NCBI GenBank assembly: GCA_902582315.1
Contig: CACHRP010000004.1
Span: forward strand, 1 to 64,000
Length of the DNA: 64,000 bases
Reading direction: 5' to 3'
From: an uncultured Pelagibacteraceae bacterium
Lineage (GTDB): Bacteria > Pseudomonadota > Alphaproteobacteria > Pelagibacterales > Pelagibacteraceae
Shown here: piece by piece, positions 1 through 20,846 of the stretch
Numbering within the stretch: position 1 is the stretch's first letter
Layout: each line of letters opens with the position of its first letter
Notes under the pieces: model-generated
Told to the model about the DNA's origin: nothing
Databases searched by the model: none
What the model saw: only the letters and a program-made list of their open reading frames with translations
Program-made: the position numbers and the translations under genes

Positions 1-137
1 GCTTAGATAAAATACCTGCTCCAACCTCGAAACAACTACCTTCTGCTACACTTGAGTCAATATGAAGTGAGTCTAATGATCCACATTCATCGTCATGAGC
101 ACATACATAAGCAGTTCCTAAATTACAGTTATCAGTT

Positions 138-597
138 TTATCGGGTTGATAAATTGGAAAATAAACTTTGATTTAAGAAAGGATCAAAAGATTTTATGAA
201 ACCTATTAACATTAATGGAAAAGTCAGTTCATTAGGAATTATAAAATGTTTTAAATCAATAAAGAAAATAATTACAAAAAAAACAGTCAAAATCAAAAGT
301 AAAAAGGTAGTAGTTGACAGACCATAAATAAAAAAAATCAAAGCAAAGATAGTTGCAGTAAATAACTCTACAATAAAATATTGTTGGCTTATTTTAAAAT
401 CGCAATTTCTACACTTAGCTTTTAGAAGAATAAATGAAAATAAAGGAATATTATCGTACCATTTTATAACTTTCTTACACCCTGGACAGCTTGAACGACC
501 TAGGACAATACCCTTATTTGCAGGAAGTCTATAGATACATACGTTTGAAAAACTACCAAAAAGACTGCCTAAAATAAAAAAAAAAAAGTAATATCAC
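138..597 (-). pseudogene. pilD: Prepilin peptidase (PilD/GspO, A24 family), 3'-truncated and frame-disrupted near the 5' end
   Basis: Minus-strand translation gives LGSLFGSFSNVCIYRLP, two CxxC pairs (SSCPGC, KCRNCD) and IDLKHFIIPNELTFP. No ATG/GTG/TTG start precedes the motif block in frame. A GTG at 595-597 joins only if the A12 run (576-587) loses one base. The ORF stops at 138 with no second catalytic GxGD motif. Confidence 0.8.
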
Positions 598-744
598 CAA
601 TTATATTTTAAATTTTGAAGCAATATTCAAAATCCCGTCTATACAGTACTGTATAATTACAACTGCGTCCTGGATGTGAAGATAGAAACCTGGTGAATTA
701 ATTATAATTTCCATGCTTGTTAAAAATATCAAAAAAGCATTAGA

Positions 745-2046
745 ATGCCAAATATAAAAATGTTTTTTAAATCAAAAAAAACTGAGATAAAAAAAGAAGA
801 CTCAACTTTAAATCAAGATTTAGCCATTATTACGCAGATGAACCAAGAGTTTGCTACCTCTCTTGACTTAAACGACACTTTACAAACAGCATTAGAAGTA
901 ATTATTAAGAGATTAAATGCACAAGCTGCAAATATTTTTTTAATTGAAGATAAAAAGCAAGTTTTTCAATGCATAGCATCTAAGTATCAATCCTATCTTG
1001 AAGAATATGAGATACCTTTAACACAAGGTGTCATGGGTAAAGCTGTATTGCAAAAAAAATGTATCAGAGTTGGAGATGTAAGGAAAGATGTGAGAGAAAT
1101 TGCAGAATTTTATTTTGATTTAGACAACAAAACAAATTTTACAACATATTCTGTTTTATGTTCACCACTTATAGCAGCCAATGAATGTATTGGAGTAATA
1201 CATTGTCTTAATAAAAAAACAAATAATAAACTTTTTGAAGAAGGAGATAGAAAATTATTAGAAACTTTATCTGCACCTGCTGCTCTTGCAATAAGAAACG
1301 CAAAGATGGCCAAAGAACTTATAGATAAAAATAGAATGCAAAAAGAAATAGAGATTGTTGGGGAAATCCAAAAAACTTTATTATCTAAAAACAAAGATGA
1401 AAAATTTCCTATTGCAGGAATAAATATACCTGCAAAAGTTGTTTCAGGCGATTTTTATAATTTTGCAGAACTTGAAAAGGGCAAATATGGTTTTGGTGTA
1501 GCAGATGTTTCAGGAAAAGGAATAAAGTCATCTTTATTAATGTCCAAGGCATCAAGTTTATATAGATGCTTGAGCAAAACTATGTTTTCTGCATCAGAAC
1601 TTTTAGAATTATTAAATAAAGAAATTTGTGAGACTGCTGCAAGAGGAATGTTCGTTACAATGCTAGTTGGAATTTATGACAGTGTTAAAAAAGAATTACA
1701 TTTGTCCAATGCAGGACATGAACCTCCATTGATTTATTCAAAGGATGGAAAATTTTCGAACTTCACTGAAGCAGGACCACCATTAGGCATTATGCCAAAA
1801 ATTAAATACAAAGAAACAATTTTAAAATTTTCAGAAAGCTCAATGTATATTTTTACAGATGGTATTACAGAAATTAAAGATCCAAATGGAGAAATGCTAG
1901 GAGCTGAAGGATTTCAAAATTATATTACAAAATATCAAGACAAACCTAGTAACCAAAGATTAAAAATTATAGTTGAAGACATAGTCAAATCTGGAAAAAT
2001 TCAGAAAGATGATTTAACTATTGTTGTGATAGACTCCTTAACATGA
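745..2046 (+). CDS. GAF domain + SpoIIE/PP2C-type serine phosphatase (RsbU-like)
   Basis: 433 aa ORF; N-terminal GAF-like region, C-terminal PP2C motifs (VSGDFYNF, GVADVSGKGIKSSL, NAGHEPPL, YIFTDGITE). Confidence 0.9.
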   Translation: MPNIKMFFKSKKTEIKKEDSTLNQDLAIITQMNQEFATSLDLNDTLQTALEVIIKRLNAQAANIFLIEDKKQVFQCIASKYQSYLEEYEIPLTQGVMGKAVLQKKCIRVGDVRKDVREIAEFYFDLDNKTNFTTYSVLCSPLIAANECIGVIHCLNKKTNNKLFEEGDRKLLETLSAPAALAIRNAKMAKELIDKNRMQKEIEIVGEIQKTLLSKNKDEKFPIAGINIPAKVVSGDFYNFAELEKGKYGFGVADVSGKGIKSSLLMSKASSLYRCLSKTMFSASELLELLNKEICETAARGMFVTMLVGIYDSVKKELHLSNAGHEPPLIYSKDGKFSNFTEAGPPLGIMPKIKYKETILKFSESSMYIFTDGITEIKDPNGEMLGAEGFQNYITKYQDKPSNQRLKIIVEDIVKSGKIQKDDLTIVVIDSLT

Positions 2047-2336
2047 AAAGTCTAATGGTATTAATAGCTATAATTGTTTCGACACTTTTAGTTTGGTCTA
2101 CTTCAAATGTTTGCAAATACAATTATGCAATTGAGAAAAAAACAAACATAATGAATATCATTACAGAAGAAATAGACCCATCAATACCAAAAGCAAAAGT
2201 GTATTACTATAAAGAACTAAATTGTACCGACGTGAAACTCGAATGGGATATAAATAGGGTCATTAAAAACCTCGAAACAATAAGTGTAATCATATATCAA
2301 GCTTTAACTACCGATATAAGAGGCAAACCACTCTAA
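2043..2336 (+). CDS. Small hypothetical protein with N-terminal signal/TM segment
   Basis: 97 aa ORF overlapping the upstream stop by 4 nt; hydrophobic N-terminus. Confidence 0.5.
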   Translation: MKSLMVLIAIIVSTLLVWSTSNVCKYNYAIEKKTNIMNIITEEIDPSIPKAKVYYYKELNCTDVKLEWDINRVIKNLETISVIIYQALTTDIRGKPL

Positions 2337-2341
2337 TTTAA

Positions 2342-2815
2342 TTGAATGCTCGCATTATAAGATATAAAATACCATTTATGAGCGAATTAAAAATATTAGA
2401 TAATAAATTAAATAAAGTGTTTTTAGATCCATCTATCATGGAAAATAGACAAATTAATTATATTTTTGTCTACCCAGGATTAAGATTTTTAAAATCTATA
2501 ATTTTAATGCACAAAAATAAAATCAAGACACTTAAAACCAATGGTAAAATTAAATATTTAATCCAAATAATTATTAATCAATTATTATTTATATTTAACC
2601 CAGGATACTCAATTTTAAAAAAATGTTTTGATCATGAAGTTATTAATCATGTATGTAATAAATTAAGCAGTATATTAAAAATATTTTTTAATTATTTAAT
2701 AAAAATTACATATTTCTTAGATAAAAACTTAAAAATAATTTTTGCAAACAAACCTATTAAAAAAAATAATTATTTAAATGAATATATTAAAAGAGGAATA
2801 AATAATAATGAGTAA
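2342..2815 (+). CDS. Hypothetical protein
   Basis: 157 aa ORF with short overlap to the next gene; no recognised motif. Confidence 0.4.
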   Translation: MNARIIRYKIPFMSELKILDNKLNKVFLDPSIMENRQINYIFVYPGLRFLKSIILMHKNKIKTLKTNGKIKYLIQIIINQLLFIFNPGYSILKKCFDHEVINHVCNKLSSILKIFFNYLIKITYFLDKNLKIIFANKPIKKNNYLNEYIKRGINNNE

Positions 2816-4037
2816 ATTATTATATGCAATGTACGATTTAGCAAATTCTGCATACACTATGGTAATAGTTACATTTGTAACTTCTGCATATTTTGCAAAT
2901 CAAATAGTTGGTGATGCTCAATTAGGTGCAGCTTATTGGCAGTGGACTGCTGGACTATGTGGAATCTTAATTGCATTAACTGGTCCTTTGCTAGGTTTAG
3001 TTGCTGATAAAAAACCTAAGGGAAGAATAATATATTTAGAAAGATTTACTTTATTTTGTATTTTGACAACATGTTTATTTTGGTTTTCAAAACCAAACTC
3101 TAATTTTATATTATTTACTTTGTTAATCTTTTTTGTTTCAAATTATTTTTATGAGATAGCAACTATATTTTATAATTCACTTCTAAAAAATTGTTCGAAT
3201 AAAAAAAATATTGGTAAAACATCTGGACTTGGTTTTGCTCTTGGTTATTTAGGAAGTGTTCCAATAATATTTATATGTTTATATTTATTTATATTACCAG
3301 AAAAAACTTTATTTAAATTAGATAAAAACAATTTTGAACATATTAGATTTATACCCTTTATTGTTGCACTTTGGTTTTTAATATTTTCATTTCCAATGAT
3401 TTATTATTTTAAAAATAAAATAAAGTATGCAACTAATTATAAAGAAAGATCATCATTAAAAAAAATATTTGAAATAGTTTGGAAAAATAAATTTACTTCA
3501 ACAGGAAAGTTTCTATTAGCAAGAATGATTTATTCTGATGCTTTGATTGTTTTAATTGCTGGAGGTGGTGTGTACGCATCAGGAGTTTTTGGGTTTAGTC
3601 CTTCTGAACTTTTAAAACTTGCAATCTATAGTAACGTAGTTGCATTCGTTGGTGTTTTGATAGGAGGATATTTAAATGATTTGTTTTCATCTAAGAATAT
3701 TATTTTAATTTGTATTTTATTTTTAATTGTAGCTGTAATCTATGGTTCTTTAATAGCACAAACAAAAAATCAATTTTTTTATAATGTAATGTTTATTTCT
3801 TTTTTTATTGGGTCTATACAAAGCGCAAGCAGAGTTCTTATGACGAAATTTTTAAATACAAATAATTTAGGAAAAGGTTTTGGTTTGTTTAGTTTTTCTG
3901 GAAGAGTAACCGCATTTGCTGGACCATTACTGGTTGGAACCGTAACTTACCTTTATTCTCAAAGGATTGGTTTATTTTCTGTATCTTTTTTATTTTTATT
4001 AGGATTTATTTTGATGATGAGTGTAAAAAATTTATAA
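2808..4037 (+). CDS. MFS transporter, UMF1/Atg22-like
   Basis: 409 aa, multiple TM segments; N-terminal YAMYDLANSAYTMVIVTFVTSAYF typical of this family. Confidence 0.8.
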   Translation: MSKLLYAMYDLANSAYTMVIVTFVTSAYFANQIVGDAQLGAAYWQWTAGLCGILIALTGPLLGLVADKKPKGRIIYLERFTLFCILTTCLFWFSKPNSNFILFTLLIFFVSNYFYEIATIFYNSLLKNCSNKKNIGKTSGLGFALGYLGSVPIIFICLYLFILPEKTLFKLDKNNFEHIRFIPFIVALWFLIFSFPMIYYFKNKIKYATNYKERSSLKKIFEIVWKNKFTSTGKFLLARMIYSDALIVLIAGGGVYASGVFGFSPSELLKLAIYSNVVAFVGVLIGGYLNDLFSSKNIILICILFLIVAVIYGSLIAQTKNQFFYNVMFISFFIGSIQSASRVLMTKFLNTNNLGKGFGLFSFSGRVTAFAGPLLVGTVTYLYSQRIGLFSVSFLFLLGFILMMSVKNL

Positions 4038-4189
4038 AGTGTTTAATTTTACAATTATTAATTGAAAAATTAATAAAAAGTTACAAAACTAGAAAAAAAT
4101 TCTATTTATTTTTAAAATTGAGGGTTGTATTGTTATAAATAATATTTGGCCACGGGTATATTTAATTTCAAAATCTTAAAAATTAATCT

Positions 4190-4500
4190 CTCTAACACAA
4201 AAAAAATTACTCTAACACAAATTTACAACTTTAAAAATAAAATTTAAAAAATGTTGATTTTATTGACTTTTCTAATTTTTAAAAAAAAATAATAACTCTA
4301 ACACAAAATTGATTCGTTGAATTGTGTTAGAGTATATTAAAATTAGTAAGATTTTTTTTTTTAGTAAAATTTTAGTATTTAAAAAAAACCATATTTTATG
4401 CGGTTTTTTTATGTTACAACCTATAATGGACACCATAATGATAAAATTGTGTTAGACTTTTTTTTAATTTGTGTTAGAGTTATTTCAAATTGTGTTAGAG
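4190..4500. repeat. Seven copies of an 11-bp motif (CTCTAACACAA / TTGTGTTAGAG), three forward then four reverse (one with a 1-nt change)
   Basis: Copies at 4190-4200, 4210-4220, 4296-4306 (CTCTAACACAA) and 4322-4332, 4447-4457 (ends GAC), 4469-4479, 4490-4500 (TTGTGTTAGAG). Confidence 0.95.
4382..4410. terminator. Terminator-like hairpin (AAAAAAACC ... GGTTTTTTT)
   Basis: 9-bp inverted repeat with 11-nt loop and T-rich 3' arm. Confidence 0.5.
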
Positions 4501-4521
4501 AAAAAAATTATTTTGTAAAAT

Positions 4522-6971
4522 ATGGATGACAAAGAAAAAGAAAAGTTCGGTGTCATAGTAGATAAGAACAAACAATCTGAAGGTGAAAAACCTAAAGATG
4601 ATGACATCAGTACTAAAAATGATGATGAACAACAAAAAGTTGTAATTAATGAGGATACTGCTCCTCAAGACCAACCTAAAGTTGATAATAATGTGCAAAA
4701 TGATCAGGACACAACCTCTAGTGACTTTACTTCAACTCCTTCGATTAGTCAGACGGTTGAAAAAATAGATGAAACTCAAACAGAGGCACAAAAAATGAAA
4801 ATATTGAGCAAAATCTTGATCAGGAAAAAAAAGAACATCAGGTTATACATAAAAAAGATGGAAGACTTCATATCTACGTAAGACAAGACAAATATAAAGG
4901 AGAATTAAAATCAAAAAATTGGGTTGGAAGATTATATATAGATGGAAAACAAAAAATTTCATCATCTGGTACTCCAAACTTAGAAGAGGCAATACCTATT
5001 CTTGAAAAATGGTTTGATGATGTGCACGCACAAAAAGAAAAAGAAAAACAAAACTTGCAACAACCAACTGCAACTGAGCAAGTAGAGAAAATTGAAACAC
5101 CTTCAGAAAATACAATTGCACCAACACAAGAACCGACAGTGCAAAAAACAGAGGAAGTTAAAACAACACCAGAAATTATTAAACCAGCAACTGAAACTAC
5201 TGCACCCATTTCTGAAAATGTGAATAGCGATGATACAGAAAATGCAAAACCTAAAAATATTTTTGAAAAACTAAAAAATATAAAAATAAAAACGCCATCA
5301 TTTGGAAAAAAAGATGGTGCAAAATTAAATTTCAAACCTGGAGCAGGCAAAGTAAAAGAAAAATTTAATAATTTTTTAAAATCAAAACTTGGAAAAAAAA
5401 CAGTTCAAGGAGAAGAAATTGTTGGCGTTGAACTTACCACAAAAGAAATAAGACTTTCGCAAATTTCATCCAACAAAGCTAATCAATGGGTTTTAGACAG
5501 ATTTTATGTTCATCCAATTGATTTACCTGATGATGCATCGATAATTGATAATGCAACAAAGATGAGTGAAGAATTAAATATTGCATTACAAAAATCAAAA
5601 ATCACAACTCCTAACGCTGCAATTGCAATACCGGTAACAAATGCAATTATAAGAGTAGTCACAGCACCATTGATGACAGATGAAGAATTAAAAAAAGCAA
5701 TAGATACAAGTTCTTTATGGGAAAATTTAGTTCAGCTTACAGATAATCTTGATGATTATTCCATATTTCATCAGGTAATTAATAGAAGTCCAAAAGACAA
5801 TACAATGGATATTTTATTTGTTGCATCAAAACTATCTGATATAAATAATTATACTTCTATAATTAAAAATAGTGGATTAAATCCAGTCATCATAGACGTA
5901 AAATGTTTTGCATTAAAGTCAGCAGTTGACCAAATAAATCAAATATCAAACAAAACAGAAGATGTAAATTTTACAGTATTATTAGAATTTGGTTTAGACG
6001 AAAATTATGTGATGATTTTATATAATAATAACCCAATAATTACAGACATTTTTTTACGAGGCCAAGATAGAAAAATTCTTAAAGAATCTAAAGATCAAGA
6101 AGAAAAAGATGCTCTAGTCAGAAGATTTATGACTCAAGTGAAACAAGCTGTACAAGATTTTGAAACAAAATATGAAAAGAGAGTTAGAAATATAAAAGTA
6201 GTCTCAAATCTAACAAATGTTGAGGATTACTTATCAAGTTTTAGAAAAAGTTTGGTTAACACAGGATTTAACTTATTTGACCCTTTCGATGGTTTAAAAA
6301 TTCCACAACAATTAAACGAAAAAATAAGTTTAGATAACAGATCATATTTTTCAACCGTTGTAGGACTTGCTTTTAGAAAATTAGATGTATTTGGTTATTA
6401 CAAATTCGTTACTGCAGTTAAAAATATAAATCTTCTCCCAAATAGAGAGGGAATGATTAAGCAAAAGAAAATGAAAGCATTTTCAAATTTTGCTTACAAA
6501 GGTGTTGTAGGCGCTGTTGCTGGTATATATCTAATTTTATTTGGTTTAGCATTCTTTAATATATTCAAATACAACAATGAACTTAAAGTATACGATGCAG
6601 TTATCAAGGAACATTCAGTAAAACAAAAACAATTACAAGCTTTACAAAAAGAACTTAAATTAATGACAACTACTTTAAAATTAAGTACTAGTCTAAAATC
6701 AAATAAAGAACTTAGTTATAGAGTCTTAGCTCAAATAGCTTCAAGTGTGCCTAATAGAGTTAAATTTAATTCAGTAGAATACGATGGCAAAACCAATGTT
6801 ACTTTAACTGGAGTTGCCGCAGGTGATAATGATATTCTTCAATTGATAAGAAATTTAGAAAATAAAAGATTAATAAATCAAGCTTCATTGTCCTCAATGA
6901 AATTACCTAAGTCAAGAGCAGGAGATCAGGCAATGAAAGGATTTAGAATATTTGTGAAAGTTAAAGGATAA
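4522..6971 (+). CDS. PilM-PilN fusion with acidic/low-complexity N-terminal extension; called as two ORFs (4522-4881, 5022-6971) because of a frame break near 4800
   Basis: ORF 5022-6971 has a PilM-like region (EIVGVELTTKEIRLSQIS) and a PilN-like region (NINLLPNREGMIKQKK + TM). The 4522 ORF joins it in frame if the A6 tract at about 4790-4795 gains one A, giving EAQKNENIEQNLDQEKKEHQVIHKKDGRLHIYVRQDKYKGELKSKNWVGRLYIDGKQK...DDVHAQKEKEK. Confidence 0.75.
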
Positions 6972-6973
6972 TT

Positions 6974-7663
6974 ATGGATTTGAATGATTTAAAAAACTTA
7001 AATATGGATGACATTAAAGCAAAAGTTTTAGCTTTTGCTGACAAAAAAACACTTATTAAGATAGGAATAAGTGTTGGATCAATTATCGTCTTCTTAATTA
7101 TTTATTACGCAATTTTAAATCCTATTGTTGAAGCTAAAAAGACGAAAATTGATAATATGAATGCCAAAAAAGCAGAAACAGCTAAATTTGAGCAAGATGC
7201 AATAAAAGCAAAAGCTAAAATAAAAAAAATAAAACCTAAATATGAAAATTATTCGACTTTATTTCACTCAAGATCTGAAGTTGAAGGGTTGTACCAGGCA
7301 TTAAGTGAATTTGCTACTGTGAATGGATTGGTTATATCGGTCATTGAAAAAGGAAAACCAGTAGTAATTTCTAAATCCCAAGTTCTAGATAAGAAGAAAA
7401 AGAAAAAGAAAAAGAAGAAGAAGAAGAAAAATCAATCTCAAGAGCAAATCAAAAAAAGCATCGCCTATTATAAAATACCTGTAAAATTTACCATTAAAGG
7501 CAATTTTTTAGGGTATATTAAGTTTAAGAGGGCTCTTTCATTATCTAATAAAATGTTGAATTTTGACAATGAATCAATAAAAGTGATAAAAGGTGATTCA
7601 ACCGGAGCGATAAATGCTACTGGAACGTTAACTATAGTGGGGCTACCAGATGAATTTTTTTAA
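6974..7663 (+). CDS. PilO-like inner-membrane pilus assembly protein
   Basis: 229 aa; single N-terminal TM, coiled coil, position in operon between PilN-like and PilP-like genes. Confidence 0.75.
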   Translation: MDLNDLKNLNMDDIKAKVLAFADKKTLIKIGISVGSIIVFLIIYYAILNPIVEAKKTKIDNMNAKKAETAKFEQDAIKAKAKIKKIKPKYENYSTLFHSRSEVEGLYQALSEFATVNGLVISVIEKGKPVVISKSQVLDKKKKKKKKKKKKKNQSQEQIKKSIAYYKIPVKFTIKGNFLGYIKFKRALSLSNKMLNFDNESIKVIKGDSTGAINATGTLTIVGLPDEFF

Positions 7664-8084
7664 AAAATTAGTTATAGCATCCCTAGCACTAATTACATTC
7701 TACACGAATGCTATTTCTGACAATCATGACATAGTTAAAAATAATACCAATGCAGAGGAACCACTGCCTTTAAATGATCCTTTTGTTGGAGACTCATCTA
7801 TTTCAGGCGGAGTAACAATAATAACAGATGATAATATTACCTCAGAAAGAAAAAAAATCGACTTATATAACTTTAAACTTGTTGGAATAATAAAGTCCCA
7901 AGGTGCAAGTTTTGTTTCTCTTATAAATCAAGATGGTGAAAATATTAACATTGAAATGTTTGAAGAACTAAATGATGGGGTCAAATTAGTAGACCTAACA
8001 ACAAAGGAAGCAGTTTTTCAAACTGAGGACACATACTTAATAATGAATTTTAAGAATGAGATAAAGGAGAAAAGTGAATACTAA
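7650..8084 (+). CDS. PilP-like periplasmic pilus assembly protein
   Basis: 144 aa, signal peptide, NDPFVGD...YNFKLVGIIKSQGASFVSLINQDG; position upstream of the secretin. Confidence 0.65.
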   Translation: MNFFKKLVIASLALITFYTNAISDNHDIVKNNTNAEEPLPLNDPFVGDSSISGGVTIITDDNITSERKKIDLYNFKLVGIIKSQGASFVSLINQDGENINIEMFEELNDGVKLVDLTTKEAVFQTEDTYLIMNFKNEIKEKSEY

Positions 8085-9624
8085 AAATTTACAAATATTT
8101 CTTGTAATAATTTTTTCCGTTATTTTTTTAAATGGTTGCGCTACTGGACCTATGTCAAAAGGAAAATCAAAAGGGTTTAAACATAATACACCCTTAATTA
8201 AAGAAGATGTAAAAAAAACTGGGAAGATTGAAGTTGAAAAAACTGTTGATATGGGACCACAACCGGTTATTGGCGATACTCAGCTTTTAGAGAAAAGAAA
8301 AAAAATATCTTCTCAGCAAAAAAGAAATTACCTTTTAATTCCTGATGAATTTGCCTCATTAAAACAAGATGTAACTTTTAAGTTTAAAAACTTAGATTAC
8401 AAAGAAGCAATGTTATTAATGGGTAAAGTCGGTGGAATAAATATCCTAGTTGGAGATGAAGTTGCAGGTTCAATCTCTGCTGAATTAAATCAAGTTCCTT
8501 GGGATAAAGCATTCAATGCATTATTGGATATGAAAAATTATGCGGCTGATATAGACGTTTCTAGTAATCTAATTAGAGTTCATACACCTTCTACATTAAC
8601 TGCACAAGAAAACTATAAATCCACAAGGGCTGCAGCGGTAAAGAAAAAAGTAGAACTAGAAGATTCAGTTGAACCAATAGTATCTGAAATATTTAGACTA
8701 TATTATATTTCTCCAGCTCAAGCAAAAACAACAATTAACGAATTATTTACATCAACGGGAGCTTCAGGTTTTAGCCCAATACAGATAACAGAAGAAGTTA
8801 CAACAAGATCAATTATTGTAAGAGGTAAAGACGAAGATTTAGATGTAGTAGATAAAATAATTAAAGAAATTGATGTAAGAACTAAACAGGTTTTAATAGA
8901 GGCATTTATTGTTGAAGCAGACTCTGATTTCGAAAGAGCTCTCGGTACAAGACTTGGAGGAGCATATCAAAGAGGTCAAGAGTCAGTTGGAGGAATAGCT
9001 GGTGGTACAACTGCTAACAGCGCAATAGGAACATCAAGTGCAGCATTAGGAGGAGCGTCTGACTCTTTAACAGATTTTACAGGCGTTGCAGCAGGTGCAA
9101 CAAGTGGAATTGGAATTTTAAAAAGAACAGGATCTGCAGTTTTAAAAGCTGAGATAACAGCTTTAGAAACACTTGGTTTAGGTAAAACAATATCAAATCC
9201 CAAAGTATTCACTTTAGATAATCAAACTGCAAATATTAAGCAGGGTGAGGAAATTCAATTCCAAGCAACAGGGTCAGAGGGTGCAAATACATCATTCAAA
9301 CCTGCAGTATTAGAGTTATCGGTAACTCCAAGCATTATTGGTGATGGAAACGTTTTAATGGATATAAGAGTTAGCAATGACTCTGTTAATAGAAAATTCA
9401 CAGGAGAACCAAGTATAGATAAAATGGAGATTACTACTAAGCTTCTTATTGCTGATGGAGATATCGTCGTTATCGGTGGAATTAAAAAAAATGAGGTCTT
9501 TGACACTAAAGATAGTGTTCCTGGACTCGGAAATGTGCCAGTTCTTGGAAATTTGTTTAAAGGACAAAAGAAAAGTGATAGCATGGATGAGCTATTAATT
9601 TTTATCGCACCAAGAGTTTTATAA
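8074..9624 (+). CDS. Secretin (PilQ/MshL/GspD family) with lipoprotein signal
   Basis: 516 aa; lipobox LNGC; STN-like region; C-terminal secretin core (VPGLGNVPVLGNLFKGQKKSDSMDELLIFIAPRVL). Confidence 0.9.
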   Translation: MNTKNLQIFLVIIFSVIFLNGCATGPMSKGKSKGFKHNTPLIKEDVKKTGKIEVEKTVDMGPQPVIGDTQLLEKRKKISSQQKRNYLLIPDEFASLKQDVTFKFKNLDYKEAMLLMGKVGGINILVGDEVAGSISAELNQVPWDKAFNALLDMKNYAADIDVSSNLIRVHTPSTLTAQENYKSTRAAAVKKKVELEDSVEPIVSEIFRLYYISPAQAKTTINELFTSTGASGFSPIQITEEVTTRSIIVRGKDEDLDVVDKIIKEIDVRTKQVLIEAFIVEADSDFERALGTRLGGAYQRGQESVGGIAGGTTANSAIGTSSAALGGASDSLTDFTGVAAGATSGIGILKRTGSAVLKAEITALETLGLGKTISNPKVFTLDNQTANIKQGEEIQFQATGSEGANTSFKPAVLELSVTPSIIGDGNVLMDIRVSNDSVNRKFTGEPSIDKMEITTKLLIADGDIVVIGGIKKNEVFDTKDSVPGLGNVPVLGNLFKGQKKSDSMDELLIFIAPRVL

Positions 9625-9625
9625 A

Positions 9626-11374
9626 ATGTTAAAAATAAGTAGAGAAAGTGAAATTAACCTTATCAACGTCTTAATTGATAATGATATTATTTCAGGTAAA
9701 GATCTCGTAAATATTAAAAAAGTAAGTACCGAGAAGAATAAATCACAAATAGATGCTGTTTTTGAATTAAAACTTTGTGATGAAAAAAAAATATTAGATG
9801 TTTTAGTAAAAGAACAAAGTTTAGAAACAGTAGATCTTTCTAAAGTTCAGATAACCGATGATATTAAATCTGTTCTGCCATCGAATTATATTAATATAAA
9901 TTTTGTTGCTCCATTTAAAATGGAGGGAAATAATCTGCATATAGCAATTTCAGATAGTTCTAAATTAGGGCTTATGAGGAATTTAAAAGCTATAACAAAA
10001 AAAAATATAGAGCTATACGCCGCAAAAGTATCTCAAATCTCAGAATTCATCCAAAAACTCCAAAGTGAGAGTGGAGATGTAACTACAGAAACTATTAGAA
10101 AAGAGAATAAAGAGAAGACAAAAACATTTGATTCTGATTTAGGAGAAGCAGGCGAGGTTCTTGATAAAAAACCTGAGGAAGATATTGAGGCAATAGAAAA
10201 TGAATCTGAGGTAATTAAATTTAGTACAGCAGTTGTAGCTGATGCAATTAAATTGGGAGTAAGTGATATACATATAGAGCCATACAGATTTTCATCTAGA
10301 GTGAGGTACAGATTAGATGGTATGTTACAAGAACAAGAAGAGTATAAACAATTTTTACATGATAACTACGGCGCAGTTGTAACTCGATTTAAAATAATGG
10401 GTAAATTGGATATTGCTGAAAGAAGATTACCACAAGATGGAGCAATAAACTTTAAGATCGACGGAAAAGTTGTTGATCTTCGTTTGTCTATACTTCCTAC
10501 AGCAAGTAATGAAAGAATTGTAATGCGTATTTTAAACAAAGACGCTGGAGACATAACTCTAGAGCAATTAAATTTTGAGGATGTTGATTTAAAAAATTTA
10601 AGAAAAGCAATTCACAGTACGCAAGGACTAATTTTAGTTACAGGGCCTACTGGATCTGGAAAATCAACAACGCTATACAGTATACTTAAAGAGGTAAGTA
10701 AACCGCATTTGAATATTTTAACGGCTGAAGATCCTGTTGAATATGAGTTGGATGGTGTTGGTCAAGTTCAAATTAAAGATGATATAGGCTTATCGTTTGC
10801 ATCTGCTTTAAGATCATTTTTGCGACAAGACCCCGAAATAATTTTAGTTGGAGAGATGAGAGATAAAGAAACTGTTGATATAGGATTAAAAGCTGCATTA
10901 ACAGGTCACTTAGTTTTTAGCACTCTACACACTAACGATGCTCCAAGTACGATCACTAGACTACAAAATATGGGTACACCTGATTATTTAATAAGTGCAG
11001 CAACACAGATGGTACTTGCTCAAAGGTTAGCAAGACGAAACTGTAAAGATTGTAGAGTTCCAGATGAAGATGTAACCCCCAAGGTATTAACTGATTTAGG
11101 CTTTTCACCTGAACAAGCATCAAGAGTAAAAGCTACAAAAGGAAAAGGTTGTGCTAAATGCAAAGATACTGGTTATAAAGGACGACAGGGAATTTATGAA
11201 ATTATGGTCGTATCTAAACCAATCAAAGAAGCAATATTAAGACAAGCTACTACTCCAGAACTTAGAGAGATTGCAATTAAGGAGGGCTTTCAAACCATGC
11301 AAGATATGGGCAGAAGGATGATCGCTAACGGTGATCTTAATTTTAGAGAATACGAAAGAGTATTAAGTAGTTAA
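9626..11374 (+). CDS. Type IV pilus/T2SS assembly ATPase (PilB/GspE/MshE family)
   Basis: 582 aa; Walker A GPTGSGKSTTLYS, RLPQDG, LRSFLRQDPEIILVGEMRD, LVFSTLHTNDAP, CxxC pair near C-terminus. Confidence 0.95.
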   Translation: MLKISRESEINLINVLIDNDIISGKDLVNIKKVSTEKNKSQIDAVFELKLCDEKKILDVLVKEQSLETVDLSKVQITDDIKSVLPSNYININFVAPFKMEGNNLHIAISDSSKLGLMRNLKAITKKNIELYAAKVSQISEFIQKLQSESGDVTTETIRKENKEKTKTFDSDLGEAGEVLDKKPEEDIEAIENESEVIKFSTAVVADAIKLGVSDIHIEPYRFSSRVRYRLDGMLQEQEEYKQFLHDNYGAVVTRFKIMGKLDIAERRLPQDGAINFKIDGKVVDLRLSILPTASNERIVMRILNKDAGDITLEQLNFEDVDLKNLRKAIHSTQGLILVTGPTGSGKSTTLYSILKEVSKPHLNILTAEDPVEYELDGVGQVQIKDDIGLSFASALRSFLRQDPEIILVGEMRDKETVDIGLKAALTGHLVFSTLHTNDAPSTITRLQNMGTPDYLISAATQMVLAQRLARRNCKDCRVPDEDVTPKVLTDLGFSPEQASRVKATKGKGCAKCKDTGYKGRQGIYEIMVVSKPIKEAILRQATTPELREIAIKEGFQTMQDMGRRMIANGDLNFREYERVLSS

Positions 11375-11376
11375 CA

Positions 11377-12615
11377 ATGGAAGCCTATACATATAAGGGT
11401 ATTTCACAAGGAAAGTATGTTGAAGGAGAAATTGAGGCTTTAAACCAAGATGAAGCTTCATTTAAGCTTAAAGAACAACAAATAATCATAACTAATCTAA
11501 TTAAATCTAAGAAGAAAAAAGGAGAAAAAAAAGAAAAATCAAAGAGTAAAGGATTTTCTTTATTCGGTAAAAAAAAGGTCAAAGTAGAAGAAATTTTAAT
11601 TTTCTCAAAACAATTTGCAACCATGGTAAAAGCTGGACTTCCAATTTTACAGGTTTTAGCAATGTTAAGAGATCAATTAGAAGGTCCAGCTATAAAGGAA
11701 GTTGTTGAGGATATTAGAAAAAGCTTAGAAGGAGGTATGACTCTTTCAAAATGTTTTGAAAAATATCCGCAATATTTTGACAACGTTTATACTAACTTAA
11801 TTAAAGCTGGAGAGGCTAGTGGTAAATTAGACGTTTTTTTAATGAAAATTGTTGATGACTTAGAAAAAAAAGAAAAAATTAAGAAAAAAATTAAAAGTGC
11901 ACTAATGTACCCAAGTATAATGTTTACGGTTGCAGTGACTGTTAGCGCTTTTATGTTAATTAAAGTAGTCCCAGTTTTTGCCGAAATGTATGATGGTATG
12001 GGTATAGCACTTCCAAAACCTACTGCAGTAATTATGAGCATGAGTAATTTTTTAAGAGGTACGGGAGGAATGCTTTTACTTTTTTCTGCAATTGGTGGAT
12101 TTGGTATATTTAAATATTTAACTACCAAAAACGATGCAATAAAATACAGATGGCACAAACAAGTTTTAAAATTACCTGTATTTGGTGATTTAATTCTTAA
12201 ATCTTTGTTAGCTCAAATATCATTAATTATGGGAAATCTCAGTGCAGCAGGAGTTAACTTATTAGAAAGTATTGAGATTGCAAAATCAGTAAGTAAAAAT
12301 GTTGTAGTAACAGAGGCTCTTGAAAATGTTAAAAAAGGAGTTTTCTCTGGAGATACACTAACAAAATTATTTTTAAAAGAACCACTATTTCCACCAACCT
12401 TCAGTCAATTAATTTCTGTTGGTGAGCAAACGGGTCAATTAGATGAAATGTTTAATTCAGTTGCAGTATATTATGAAGCTGAGTTTGATACAGCAGTTGA
12501 TAACATGTCTAGTTTAATTGAACCTATCATGATCGTTTTCATGGGTCTTATGATTGGTGGATTAATGATAGCAATGTACTCTCCAATATTTAATGTTGGT
12601 GCTTTAATTGGTTAA
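11377..12615 (+). CDS. Type IV pilus/T2SS inner-membrane platform protein (PilC/GspF family)
   Basis: 412 aa; two GspF repeats (FSKQFATMVKAGLPILQVL; FSQLISVGEQTGQLDEMF). Confidence 0.95.
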   Translation: MEAYTYKGISQGKYVEGEIEALNQDEASFKLKEQQIIITNLIKSKKKKGEKKEKSKSKGFSLFGKKKVKVEEILIFSKQFATMVKAGLPILQVLAMLRDQLEGPAIKEVVEDIRKSLEGGMTLSKCFEKYPQYFDNVYTNLIKAGEASGKLDVFLMKIVDDLEKKEKIKKKIKSALMYPSIMFTVAVTVSAFMLIKVVPVFAEMYDGMGIALPKPTAVIMSMSNFLRGTGGMLLLFSAIGGFGIFKYLTTKNDAIKYRWHKQVLKLPVFGDLILKSLLAQISLIMGNLSAAGVNLLESIEIAKSVSKNVVVTEALENVKKGVFSGDTLTKLFLKEPLFPPTFSQLISVGEQTGQLDEMFNSVAVYYEAEFDTAVDNMSSLIEPIMIVFMGLMIGGLMIAMYSPIFNVGALIG

Positions 12616-13025
12616 ATTTTTTTTGTAAGAACTAAGTGATTAACCCATTGCTGTTCATCTTTTTTAAAAACAGCATCATCCATAATTTGTTTTATAAAAT
12701 ATGTACCAAGACCACCTGGCTTAATATCGTCTAATTTTCTATGTTGAATATTTTCAGCAACTACTGGCTTACCTTTGTCAAAAAAACCAATCTCTAACTG
12801 ATTGTCGTTTAAAGATATTTTTATTTGCATATGATCTTTAGTATCTTCAACGCCTTTATATGCATGTTTGACAATATTTTGTGCAGCCTCAGCGATAGCC
12901 AAAACTAATTCATCTTTTAATTCATTATCGAGTTTTAATTTATCAAAAACTTCTCTAGAAAAAACTCTTACCTCTTTTAAACTTTTAGTGTGGACGATGA
13001 AATCTTTTGTTTCTGTTAGGTTCAT
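12612..13025 (-). CDS. RsbW/SpoIIAB-like serine kinase (HATPase, anti-sigma type)
   Basis: 137 aa; LVLAIAEAAQNIVKHAYKG N-box and KPGGLGTYFIKQIMD G-box. Confidence 0.9.
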   Translation of the reverse strand: MNLTETKDFIVHTKSLKEVRVFSREVFDKLKLDNELKDELVLAIAEAAQNIVKHAYKGVEDTKDHMQIKISLNDNQLEIGFFDKGKPVVAENIQHRKLDDIKPGGLGTYFIKQIMDDAVFKKDEQQWVNHLVLTKKI

Positions 13026-13324
13026 TACTCAAGGTTTAAAATTTGCTCCAACTTCGCCATCATTATTACTTTTAAAACAGATTTACTTACCTCTTTAACT
13101 ACTACTTTTGTATTTGACTCTAATGCCTTTTGATGACTTTCAATTAGTACTGAAATTCCTGAAGAGTCCATGTAAGAAACATCTTTTAAATTCAAATGAA
13201 CTTCTTTGCCCGCCTCAACCAACGGCAAAATAACTTCTTTTGCCTTTTCGGTTACATCCATATCAATTTCACCGTTTAGGAATACAGTTGATATATTTCC
13301 CTCTTCTGTAATTTTGTAACTCAT
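13025..13324 (-). CDS. STAS-domain anti-sigma factor antagonist
   Basis: 99 aa; NLKDVSYMDSSGISVLIESH with the conserved phosphoacceptor serine. Confidence 0.9.
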   Translation of the reverse strand: MSYKITEEGNISTVFLNGEIDMDVTEKAKEVILPLVEAGKEVHLNLKDVSYMDSSGISVLIESHQKALESNTKVVVKEVSKSVLKVIMMAKLEQILNLE

Positions 13325-13504
13325 AAAAAATGTACTGATAACACTAATAAAGAATTATTAAAATTGATAAATTACGTCAAAATGGCCATAAAAAACAGAA
13401 AATGTGTTATTTCCTAGGTTTTTCAACAAACTTCATTCTTTACATAATTATTATAATTAATAAAAATACGTAAATATTAAATTTTTGATCCTAAAGGGAG
13501 GGTT

Positions 13505-13963
13505 ATGAAAAAAAATAAAAACAATAAAGGTTTTACCTTAATCGAATTACTAGTTGTTGTTGCAATTATCGGTGCATTAGCAGCTGTAGGTGTTGTTGCT
13601 TATAATGGTTATACAGCAGCAGCTAAAAAGAATTCAACAAAATCAATTCACGCAAACGTTGTTAAATATGTTGCATCGGAACTTGCTAAATGTAATTTAG
13701 ATTCTGACTCAGAAGTTTTTGGTGGAGCAGACAGTGTAGATTGCGATAGTACTGCGGCACAAATTGTATCTATGCTTGCAGGTAGCAATTCACCACTACA
13801 GGATAAAGATCCTTACCAAGGTGATGCAGCAGTTGTTGACTCCGAACCAACTAAACCAGAAGGTAACGTTGTAATAGAAGCTGACGGTAGTGATATTAAC
13901 TTTACAACTTCACCAACTGACGATTCTGCTGATAACTTAACTGCAACTATAACGGTTGAGTAA
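13505..13963 (+). CDS. Type IV pilin-like protein
   Basis: 152 aa; KGFTLIELLVVVAIIGALAAVG prepilin class III signal; two Cys in the C-terminal half. Confidence 0.9.
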   Translation: MKKNKNNKGFTLIELLVVVAIIGALAAVGVVAYNGYTAAAKKNSTKSIHANVVKYVASELAKCNLDSDSEVFGGADSVDCDSTAAQIVSMLAGSNSPLQDKDPYQGDAAVVDSEPTKPEGNVVIEADGSDINFTTSPTDDSADNLTATITVE

Positions 13964-13985
13964 ATAGTAGATTAGTAAAAAGCTG

Positions 13986-14417
13986 TTGAAAAAAAAAAAA
14001 ATTTTTGGATTTAGCTTAATAGAGCTTCTTGTAGTCGTTGCAATTATAGGTGCCCTTGCAGCAATTGGAACCCTGTCTTACAGCGGCTACACATCATCAG
14101 CAAAAAAATCTGCAGCAACAAACACAATGCAAACTATTGGTTTAATGCAAGCTGAATATTATTCGTTAACAGGAAGCTATTATGGAGGTGAATGCCCGCC
14201 AACTGACGAAACGGTAGAAGGTATTTCGCAATCTTTATTTGACGCTGCAGAAGGTGAGGATGTAATTGACTCTGAAAATTATCTTTTTTGTGTAGTAACG
14301 GATGACTCAGAATCTTACATTGTAAAAGCTTGCGAAGGAGACAAAGATGGAACAGCTTGTAAGACAGGAGCTTCAATTTTGGAATTAAATGCTAAGGGAG
14401 CAAAAACTAATTGGTAA
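13986..14417 (+). CDS. Type IV pilin-like protein
   Basis: 143 aa; FGFSLIELLVVVAIIGALAAIG prepilin signal; TTG start followed by an A13 run. Confidence 0.9.
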   Translation: MKKKKIFGFSLIELLVVVAIIGALAAIGTLSYSGYTSSAKKSAATNTMQTIGLMQAEYYSLTGSYYGGECPPTDETVEGISQSLFDAAEGEDVIDSENYLFCVVTDDSESYIVKACEGDKDGTACKTGASILELNAKGAKTNW

Positions 14418-14435
14418 GTAATTTTTGTCTAAGAA

Positions 14436-14681
14436 ATGTCTATTTTAAATACAGGAGATTTTCTCAAAAAACTTTTCTCGGGTAATTCCTCTCTAAAAAC
14501 TAAGCTTTTCTCAACTTTAAGTATTATTTGGATGATTTTAATTGGTTATATTATTTGGTGGAATGGTGTACAAAGTCCAGGGATTGATAAAAGTTTTAAA
14601 TGGGACGAGTGGATATGGTTTGGATTTGTTCCAGCAATTGCTCCATTTATAATTTATATTATTTGGAAAAAAAATGAGTAA
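14436..14681 (+). CDS. Small two-TM membrane protein of unknown function
   Basis: 81 aa; two hydrophobic segments; overlaps the next start. Confidence 0.6.
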   Translation: MSILNTGDFLKKLFSGNSSLKTKLFSTLSIIWMILIGYIIWWNGVQSPGIDKSFKWDEWIWFGFVPAIAPFIIYIIWKKNE

Positions 14682-15984
14682 AGTAAAAATATTATTTAGA
14701 ATTTCAGCAATTTTGATTTGTGGGTCTTATTTTTTAATGCAGAGTGCATTTGCAACAGAAAAAAATATTACCTATATGCAAATTTTACAAAAACCAAATG
14801 ATTTAGAATTAAATATAAAGTATGCCCAACAACAAGGTAAGATGGGTAACTTTAAGCAAACCATTTCAACATTAGAAAGATTGAACATGGTTTATCCAGA
14901 TAATATAGAAATAAAAATGTATTTGCTTTCTGTTCTTGTTCAAGCAGACTCACCCGATAAAGCTTTAACTGTAATTGATGAAATTAAAAACAATGAAGAT
15001 GCAACCGAAGAAGATTTATTAACCGTTGCTGAAATTGAACAAGAATTAGAAGATAGAGCTAGACCTAAATTGTGGAATTTCGTTGCTGGAGTAAATTGGG
15101 GCCTTTCTCAAAGTAATAACGTTAACAGTGTGTCAAAAACTAGATTACAAATGAGTTCAGACGCTTTGGATGTATTTGCTTCACCAATGCATGACAGGAC
15201 TTACAGTGTAAGCAGTGATATTTCTGCAATAAGACAAATTGGAGACAGCTCATCATTTTTACTTAGCGCAAGTGTTTCAGATTCACGTCAAGTAGTAGAA
15301 ACTGGTGATGATGTTGAGGGTTATACTTTAACATCTGCTTATGACACTCAAATTGCAAATCAAGGTATATCTATATTTGGAATGCTAAGTAAATCAGATT
15401 ATATTGATGATGCTGATAGTTTTTCAACCATGGCTGGGTTATCTGGTTTTTTCCCAAGTGGCGATAGAAGTACTTATAGTTATTCATACACATTCTCAGA
15501 CTCTAAAGGAAACCACAATTCATCTGACACAACAGCAAACGAGTCAAATGCTATAGGACATAGTGTTACCATTGGACATGATTATTCACTAACAGAAATT
15601 ATTTCTACAAGTTTAGGTTCAGGATACAGTATTTCGGAAAATAAAGTTGGCGCAAATGATTATGAAACTTTTGATTTTAGTCTTCGAGTAAACTTTAACC
15701 TGCCTTATGCATACATTTCAGTTGGAGACGCCTTATCTTTCAATGAATATTTTGAATTTGACTCTAGTAATAATTCAGCTTTGATAAGATCTGACGTTGC
15801 AAATACTTTTGATATTATCGTTTTAAAGCCACTAGGAGATTTTTTTCCATTTTTAGATCCTAATAAGTTAATAAATTTGTCATTTTCATATGACAAAACA
15901 ATATCTGAAGCCAACATCATAAATTACGATTATGTAGCAGAATCCTTTGGTTTTGGAATTTCAAGATCTTTTAATTTAAGATAA
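14674..15984 (+). CDS. TPR-containing outer-membrane beta-barrel protein
   Basis: 436 aa; signal peptide, TPR-like N-terminal half, alternating-pattern C-terminal half ending FGFGISRSFNLR. Confidence 0.6.
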   Translation: MSKVKILFRISAILICGSYFLMQSAFATEKNITYMQILQKPNDLELNIKYAQQQGKMGNFKQTISTLERLNMVYPDNIEIKMYLLSVLVQADSPDKALTVIDEIKNNEDATEEDLLTVAEIEQELEDRARPKLWNFVAGVNWGLSQSNNVNSVSKTRLQMSSDALDVFASPMHDRTYSVSSDISAIRQIGDSSSFLLSASVSDSRQVVETGDDVEGYTLTSAYDTQIANQGISIFGMLSKSDYIDDADSFSTMAGLSGFFPSGDRSTYSYSYTFSDSKGNHNSSDTTANESNAIGHSVTIGHDYSLTEIISTSLGSGYSISENKVGANDYETFDFSLRVNFNLPYAYISVGDALSFNEYFEFDSSNNSALIRSDVANTFDIIVLKPLGDFFPFLDPNKLINLSFSYDKTISEANIINYDYVAESFGFGISRSFNLR

Positions 15985-16078
15985 GTTTTATTAAATATTA
16001 TAAAGAGGAATTATTTTTTTTTTAAATATTTTAGATTTTGACCATTTTATGGGGTTTTTTTACATATAATAGGAGTTG

Positions 16079-16114
16079 CAAAAAACCCAAACTGAGTAAA
16101 TTAAGGGTTTTTTG
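16079..16114. terminator. Inverted repeat CAAAAAACCC ... GGGTTTTTTG, terminator-like
   Basis: 10-bp perfect arms with 16-nt loop between two genes. Confidence 0.6.
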
Positions 16115-16137
16115 TAAACAAAAAATTGGTATAAAGT

Positions 16138-17526
16138 ATGCGTATGAAGAAAATATTGTCAGTTCTAGCCGGACTTATCTTGTTTGCAAATACAACATTT
16201 GCTGAAGAGTTAAGTATTGAAAAACAACTAGTTGGTATAGTTGGTGCTATTAATGGTACAGTTAAAACTGAAACTAGAACTCTTAAGGCAGGTGACAAGA
16301 TTTATCTGAACGAAACTATATACGCTTCCGAAAACTCAGGAACACAAATACTTCTTTTAGACCAATCAACATTTACAATCGGTTCAGAGTCAGAGGTCGT
16401 GATGGATACTTTTATATATGATCCAGAAACTAGTGATGGAAAGATTGTAGCAAGCGTTAAACAAGGTAGTTTAAAAGTAATATCAGGATTAATTAGCAAA
16501 AAAAATCCAGACAGTTTAACTGTTGAGGTTCCAGAGGGAACATTAGGATCTAGAGGTACAGAATTTCAAACAAATGTATCAAAAGGAAAAACTGATACTT
16601 TATTAATCGGACCAGGAAAAAATAATACTTTAGGTTTAAGACCTGGTGCAGTTTTAGTTGGAAATAATCTTGGCCAAACACTACTTGATAAACCTTTCAG
16701 TGTTGCAAGTATGGCAAAAGGTAAAGCCCCAAGTAAGGCAAGACAAATTACAAAATCACAATTAAAAAAATTCAATAAAAAAATGAAAGCTTTAAGAGTA
16801 GCAAAAGCTTCAGGCGCTACTAAAGAAGAAAAGAAAGCACTAAGAAAAAAAATTAGACAAGAATTAAAAGCACAAGGTTTTGAAAAAGAGGAAATAAGAA
16901 CTTTAATCAAAGAAAATTTAAGAAAAGATAATGAACAGAGACTTGTACTATTAGGTGAAAATGAACCACAATCAACAGAATTAGATGTAGATCAAAATAT
17001 AGCAGAGGAAGTTGAAGTAGAAGCACAAGAAATAGATGTTGCAGAGCCAGAAAAACCAAAAGCAACTGAAAAGACAAAAGATAAAAAGAAAGAGCAAAAA
17101 GCTAATAAGAAAAAAGGCAAAAAGAAAAAAGGAAAAGCTAAAAATAAAAAAGGTAAAAAGAAAAAAGAAAAAGCTAAAAAATCAAAAGGTAAAAAGAAAA
17201 AAGCAACTAAGAAAAAAGCAACTAAGAAAAAAGCTACAAAAAAAACAACTAAGAAAACAACTAAGAAAAAAGCTACAAAGAAAAAAGCAACTAAGAAAAA
17301 AGCACCTAAGAAAAAAGCAGCTAAGAAAAAAGCAGCTAAGAAAAAAGCACCTAAAAAGAAAAAAGCAGTTAAGAAAAAAGCACCTAAAAAGAAAAAAGTA
17401 GTTAAGAAAAAGGCTCCTAAAAAGAAAAAAGTAGTTAAGAGAAAAGTAGTTAAGAAGAAAAAGATAGTTAAAAAGAAAGTTGCTCAAAAGAAAAAGAAGA
17501 GAAAAAAGAAGAGAAAAAAGAAATAA
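16138..17526 (+). CDS. Exported FecR-domain protein with Lys-rich histone-H1-like C-terminal tail
   Basis: 462 aa; signal peptide MKKILSVLAGLILFANTTFAEE; FecR-like core (LLDQSTFTIGSESEVVMDTFIYDP, VEVPEGTLGSRGTEF); final ~150 aa of KKKAT/KKKAP/KKKAA repeats. Confidence 0.85.
   Translation: MRMKKILSVLAGLILFANTTFAEELSIEKQLVGIVGAINGTVKTETRTLKAGDKIYLNETIYASENSGTQILLLDQSTFTIGSESEVVMDTFIYDPETSDGKIVASVKQGSLKVISGLISKKNPDSLTVEVPEGTLGSRGTEFQTNVSKGKTDTLLIGPGKNNTLGLRPGAVLVGNNLGQTLLDKPFSVASMAKGKAPSKARQITKSQLKKFNKKMKALRVAKASGATKEEKKALRKKIRQELKAQGFEKEEIRTLIKENLRKDNEQRLVLLGENEPQSTELDVDQNIAEEVEVEAQEIDVAEPEKPKATEKTKDKKKEQKANKKKGKKKKGKAKNKKGKKKKEKAKKSKGKKKKATKKKATKKKATKKTTKKTTKKKATKKKATKKKAPKKKAAKKKAAKKKAPKKKKAVKKKAPKKKKVVKKKAPKKKKVVKRKVVKKKKIVKKKVAQKKKKRKKKRKKK
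17060..17525 (+). repeat. Degenerate (AAGAAAAAAGCANCT)n coding repeat
   Basis: Direct reading of the tandem AAGAAAAAAGCAACTAAGAAAAAAGCA... units. Confidence 0.9.
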
Positions 17527-17584
17527 TCTCTAAATCCCTCCTAAGTTTTATTTACTTTAATGATAATAAATATACATTCTAAGA

Positions 17585-20654: not shown

Positions 20655-20719
20655 AATTTTTTAAACAAATCTTATTAAATCATTAATGAAATTTTTATAC
20701 CATGTGTTATACTGATCTC

Positions 20720-20778
20720 AGATAGTCCTATCTAGCCATCTTTAGCTCCCGGTTTTATAGGACTATCCACATTTTTTC
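20720..20778 (+). ncRNA. Candidate ~60-nt small RNA (hairpin + U tract downstream of an extended -10)
   Basis: TGTTATACT extended -10 at 20705-20713; perfect 11-bp inverted repeat GATAGTCCTAT (20721-20731)/ATAGGACTATC (20757-20767); T6 at 20772-20777. Confidence 0.45.
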
Positions 20779-20846
20779 TTAACTCTACTTCCCATTTTTT
20801 TACTAAATAGAAATTTTTGGTGTAATAATGATGTTATCAATTTTTT

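Follow-up and report, generated by a model that had tools for sequence, protein, structure and literature searches.

A phased array of 11-bp sites ahead of a SAR11 pilus operon and its conserved pairing with an extra N-terminal domain of PilM

What binds the repeated 11-bp sites that lie directly ahead of a pilus operon in SAR11 (Pelagibacteraceae), and to what effect? The sites belong to a stretch of 64,000 nucleotides (hereafter the window), in which positions 4190-4500 hold seven copies of the 11-mer TTGTGTTAGAG, six of them exact (Table 1). We could confirm the initial annotation in its description of this array: sites 1-3 read CTCTAACACAA on the forward strand and sites 4-7 lie on the plus strand, start-to-start spacings within sub-clusters are 20, 26, 22 and 21 bp, and the central pair forms a 12-bp inverted repeat (ACTCTAACACAA / TTGTGTTAGAGT). 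The last copy ends at 4500 and the pilus ORF starts at 4522, with 21 bases between them. In the whole assembly (1,181,295 bp in 23 contigs), all six exact 11-mers fall inside the array, which is therefore far beyond chance, and 11-mers with one mismatch occur elsewhere as scattered singles. The motif is thus not common throughout the genome, as the initial annotation had considered it might be. Likewise, the array is the sole cluster of sites on a 966-kb contig of the relative AG-426-E17. An Rfam scan gave no match at the array, a tRNA scan and a PADLOC scan found none, and the top-ranked results of a literature search held no account of the motif in SAR11.

Table 1 Positions in the window of the array sites, elements near them, pilM and other genes in or beside the pilus cluster
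Feature	Position	Strand	Sequence or remark
Array site 1	4190..4200	-	TTGTGTTAGAG, exact
Array site 2	4210..4220	-	TTGTGTTAGAG, exact
Conserved bend-like element	4252..4269	+	TGTTGATTTTATTGACTT; lies within the left spacer (~75 bp), which separates site 2 from site 3
Array site 3, left arm of central inverted repeat	4296..4306	-	exact
Array site 4, right arm of central inverted repeat	4322..4332	+	exact
Promoter-like block	4419..4433	+	ACCTATAATGGACAC; just before the right-hand sites
Array site 5	4447..4457	+	TTGTGTTAGAC, last base C; C likewise in 79% of relatives' first right-hand sites
Array site 6	4469..4479	+	exact
Array site 7	4490..4500	+	exact
pilM start and acidic, disordered-looking leader	4522..4881	+	starts MDDKEKEKFGVIV...
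N-terminal beta4-alpha domain of PilM	4833..5048	+	candidate array-binding domain
PilM-PilN fusion body	5022..6971	+	PF11104, PF05137
RsbU-like GAF-SpoIIE phosphatase	745-2046		in or beside the pilus cluster
RsbW-like HATPase and STAS protein	12612-13025, 13025-13324	-	in or beside the pilus cluster

We searched 61 genomes of the same genus and called an array where two or more exact copies fell in one cluster. The array was present in 16 of the 61, and exactly the same 16 genomes encode a domain of about 65 residues fused to the N-terminus of PilM-PilN; array and domain each occur in a single copy per genome, and the gene with the domain begins 20-50 bp past the array. Ten other genomes encode a close PilM (64-72% identity) without the domain and have no array. 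Their pilM products start with MKNPF, MKNFF or similar, and a divergent pilT lies about 120 bp away. Since most of the genomes are incomplete single-cell assemblies, absence in any single genome means little; the ten without the domain do carry information, since both pilM and the sequence upstream of it exist in these assemblies and were read. Eighty further named loci were retrieved via the domain. The array lies 30-370 bp upstream of the pilM start codon in 74 of them, and the exceptions comprise five loci that begin at a contig end and one on a chimeric contig, which is to say that it takes this position in all loci with enough intact upstream sequence. We rejected L145 as a domain gene lacking the array, as the DNA upstream of it stems from the phosphatase gene in inverted orientation and the contig is chimeric. 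These counts over genomes and loci remove the concern that the array might be absent or unconserved in all relatives: it is conserved in those with this pilus operon, and it is absent where PilM is without the extra domain. Outside the genus, the domain was not found in 390-odd other alphaproteobacterial genomes, and viral, phage and plasmid collections held no relatives of either domain or array; two or three spaced copies did appear in each of six viral contigs, but these are unrelated repeats.

On the PilM tree, the presence of the domain requires one or two changes. This suggests that domain and array were probably gained together once, so that their pairing does not amount to 16 independent events; it is strong as a conserved linkage, and the 16/16 match counts for little more than a single evolutionary event. 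A single gain event would also suit a separate, unlinked regulator that binds the array, with the domain match as hitch-hiking, and the RsbU-like phosphatase, anti-sigma-like kinase and STAS protein of the cluster could feed such a regulator. We consider this quite unlikely: across the clade, conservation of the domain far exceeds that of the protein that carries it, the domain occurs nowhere else, and the sites are confined to one locus, so that an unlinked regulator would serve a single target.

In the window, the pilM reading frame breaks close to an A-run at ~4790, so that the gene reads in two frames. Relatives have one intact ORF of ~800 aa, and in L094, the PilM body of which is identical to that of the window, the ORF is intact; the split probably reflects an error of assembly or sequencing, or else a mutation that arose recently. 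The domain (HKKDGRLHIYVRQDKYKGELKSKNWVGRLYIDGKQKISSSGTPNLEEAIPILEKWFDDV) has a mean identity of 92% and stands within an otherwise variable acidic leader and linker. Identity to the window is 93% for the domain compared to 77% for the PilM body, with similar synonymous divergence (same-codon fractions of 0.62 and 0.60, respectively), which indicates that selection holds the protein sequence. The domain is basic, with many invariant Lys and Arg, and an AlphaFold model predicts four strands and a long helix (beta4-alpha, pLDDT 87). It had no match in Pfam at E up to 10 and no significant match to PDB sequences or fold libraries, and trials of the AP2 family and of phrog_17986 gave no useful relatives. 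Profile comparison with 30 integrase arm-type domains (PF13356) produced a full-length alignment with the pattern W-x(2)-R-x-Y-x(2)-GK-x-K...G; its score of 19.0 was equalled in 1 of 500 column shuffles and the hhalign probability was only 11%. The domain falls below the curated Pfam cut-off for PF13356, and we regard the fold link to integrase arm-type domains as a weak lead rather than as membership. No account of a DNA-binding PilM appeared among the top-ranked results of a literature search.

A typical array across the relatives has 6-8 sites, mostly 7 or 8, in the order of two or more reverse sites, a central divergent pair, two or three forward sites and then pilM. Ten of the 11 positions of the site are practically invariant, at near 2 bits each, and the last G is found in 86%, although these figures are somewhat inflated, since only sites that differed from the 11-mer at one position at most were collected. 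In most arrays C is the final base of the first right-hand site, as it is in the window, and the intergenic sequence between sites is poorly conserved. From start to start, most sites are 21-22, 85-87, 126-129 or 150-153 bp apart, and the centre gaps are 25/26 or 35/36 bp, spacer changes among relatives being whole helical turns. The phasing corresponds to 10.7 bp per turn with a vector strength of 0.84, a value that was not reached in any of 2000 randomisations, even where whole gap classes were moved together. Variation of the spacers by whole helical turns points to duplex DNA as the target, with the sites presumably read from one face of the helix. The initial annotation had proposed cooperative binding by an oligomeric regulator or else a structural DNA or RNA element. 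Cooperative binding by an oligomeric DNA-binding protein is well supported by the invariant sites, their arrangement on both strands and a phasing kept through whole-turn changes, and an RNA element is disfavoured by the same phasing and two-strand arrangement as well as by the poor conservation between sites.

The left spacer holds a conserved bend-like element, the reverse complement of which, AATCAACATTTT, is IHF-like and matches 8 of 9 specified consensus bases; the resemblance to an IHF site lies in the WATCAR half. Its TTGA core is invariant in an alignment of 16 rows, and the IHF-like WATCARNNNNTT occurs in 26 of 52 distinct left spacers compared to a shuffle mean of 3.3. For the IHF consensus WATCARNNNNTTR, the lax form is enriched 5- to 8-fold and the strict form is not enriched. 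The element is often repeated, in either orientation, in the right spacer of relatives, and less clearly so in the window. Genes like those of IHF-alpha and IHF-beta are present in their usual contexts (merR, rpsA), and IHF is possibly the protein that would act at this element. The promoter-like block has the genus consensus ACC[CT]AAAATGRNCA, taken from column conservation in about 50 distinct upstream regions. Genomes that lack the array have a comparable ACCCAA block ahead of pilM, so the block probably belongs to the promoter region of this gene, which would place sites 5-7 over or just after the transcription start point. Simple promoter scanning of the window gave matches at chance level only. 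The genomes L177-L186, which have no array, share a different conserved block (TTCTAGTAAAAGTTGAGTATAAAGTT-like) in the interval from pilT to pilM, and this may represent an ancestral promoter or operator of pilM.

The array has two arms of short, phased, non-palindromic sites and a bend-protein-like element in the spacer, and in this it is reminiscent of a lambda-type attP; the small, basic candidate domain of beta-sheet and helix in PilM is reminiscent of the integrase arm-binding domain (PF13356-like). One could thus suppose that the array served a phage or integrative element for attachment, or is what remains of one, with arm-type and IHF sites. However, the array differs from such an attP in having no recombinase, no core or crossover sites and no sign of mobility, and the homology of the domain is weak. 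We looked for an integrase among the ORFs of the window at 1-16000 and around the array in two relatives (L055 and L056) and found none, so that the ORFs beside the array offer no recombinase; together with the lack of viral or plasmid relatives and the stable position before pilM across the clade, this makes the reading very improbable. We give even less credit to a replication origin, whether one with DnaA-like boxes or the iteron type found on a mobile element, which repeated boxes with CACA cores, AT-rich DNA and one site per chromosome might recall. None of the marks of an oriC that we looked for, namely genus-wide presence, a DnaA-box cluster and closeness to the skew minimum, was found at the array: it is missing from most members of the genus, it holds no DnaA-box cluster, and it lies 86 kb from the cumulative skew minimum (on the 966-kb contig). 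In addition, there is no rep gene, and parAB/parS are about 270-295 kb away. The array was also rejected as parS itself, since a parS-like site was found beside parAB at 384.9 kb and the array at 680.6 kb of the same contig.

The main alternative to autoregulation is a tether, in which PilM built into the machine at the inner membrane would hold the locus at the base of the pilus in a centromere-like manner, with regulation secondary; pilus assembly, pil transcription and perhaps the placement of the chromosome in very small cells would then be mechanically coupled. PilM is a member of the actin-like FtsA/ParM fold group, and the array resembles ParMRC in that 11-bp sites form two clusters around a promoter region, as in parC, with an actin-like partner. 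There is one array per chromosome, and its half upstream of the presumed promoter faces no divergent gene to control. On the other hand, the candidate DNA-binding domain is fused to the actin-like protein rather than separate, and its predicted fold is beta4-alpha and not the ribbon-helix-helix of the separate ParR that accompanies ParM. Unlike ParMRC, the array is chromosomal and ParABS is present elsewhere, as a canonical rsmG(gidB)-parA-parB set with parS about 295 kb away, and the position right at the start of the operon is what autoregulation predicts. We regard tethering, and the mechanical coupling with it, as unlikely, and note that tether and autoregulation could coexist.

It had also been stated that no regulator is evident nearby. 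This proved wrong, as the first gene of the operon encodes a putative DNA-binding domain, and as an RsbU/RsbW/RsbV-type set is found in the cluster. The RsbU-like and RsbW-like proteins and the STAS protein likely form a partner-switching module, which may control the expression or activity of the pilus. The proteins in the PilO and PilP positions (6974-7663 and 7650-8084) have no Pfam match, and the former contains a long poly-lysine stretch. In AG-920-L03 (L055), a second pilus cluster at 7782-18220 is located immediately upstream of both the phosphatase gene and the array, which places the array within a larger pilus island; by reading of the sequences, we named in it a pilT-like ATPase, pseudopilin-like proteins, a PilY1-like protein of 1620 aa and a prepilin-peptidase-like protein. 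The window further contains a match to the rhtB sRNA (RF01814) at 20703-20785 with 76 bits.

The array, then, is unique in its genome, conserved, helically phased, constant in position and matched one to one by the PilM domain. As judged from the sequence, the N-terminal domain of PilM is the likeliest binder, as it adjoins the sites, is paired with them one to one and has the same extreme conservation, and we consider it probable that it does bind them. With somewhat less assurance, we favor a multi-site operator bound by the first product of its own operon, with autoregulation of either sign as the core of the function. Since sites 5-7 stand between the promoter-like block and the start codon, negative feedback is the most likely main effect, although we hold it less firmly than binding by the domain. 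The leader and linker around the extra beta4-alpha domain of PilM are acidic and would be flexible. A number of PilM copies, gathered on the oligomeric pilus platform or by contact with one another, would bind the phased 11-bp sites cooperatively along one face of the DNA, and a bend at the TGTTGATTTTA element, possibly by IHF, would fold the left and right arms together. Free, unassembled PilM would in this way shut its own operon, pilMN-O-P-Q-B-C, and uptake of PilM into pilus machines would release it, by which regulation would be coupled to pilus assembly.

PutA, BirA and NadR are known as proteins of the "trigger enzyme" kind, which act on autoregulated operators through a fused DNA-binding domain. 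PilM would be alike in that a protein with another job has its own candidate DNA-binding domain and presumed sites at its own promoter. It would differ in that its host protein, PilM-PilN, serves as a structural component of the type IV pilus platform and in that the operator is made up of 7-8 sites that form two arms; no such pilus case appeared among the top-ranked results of our literature search. SAR11 bacteria, which rank among the ocean's most abundant cells, keep few regulators and have a pilus system. The elements of the present system are short: a domain of ~65 residues and a site of 11 bp, for which many array variants occur naturally. If the proposed reading is true, the assembly of a surface organelle would feed back directly on the expression of its genes, and no dedicated regulator would be involved.
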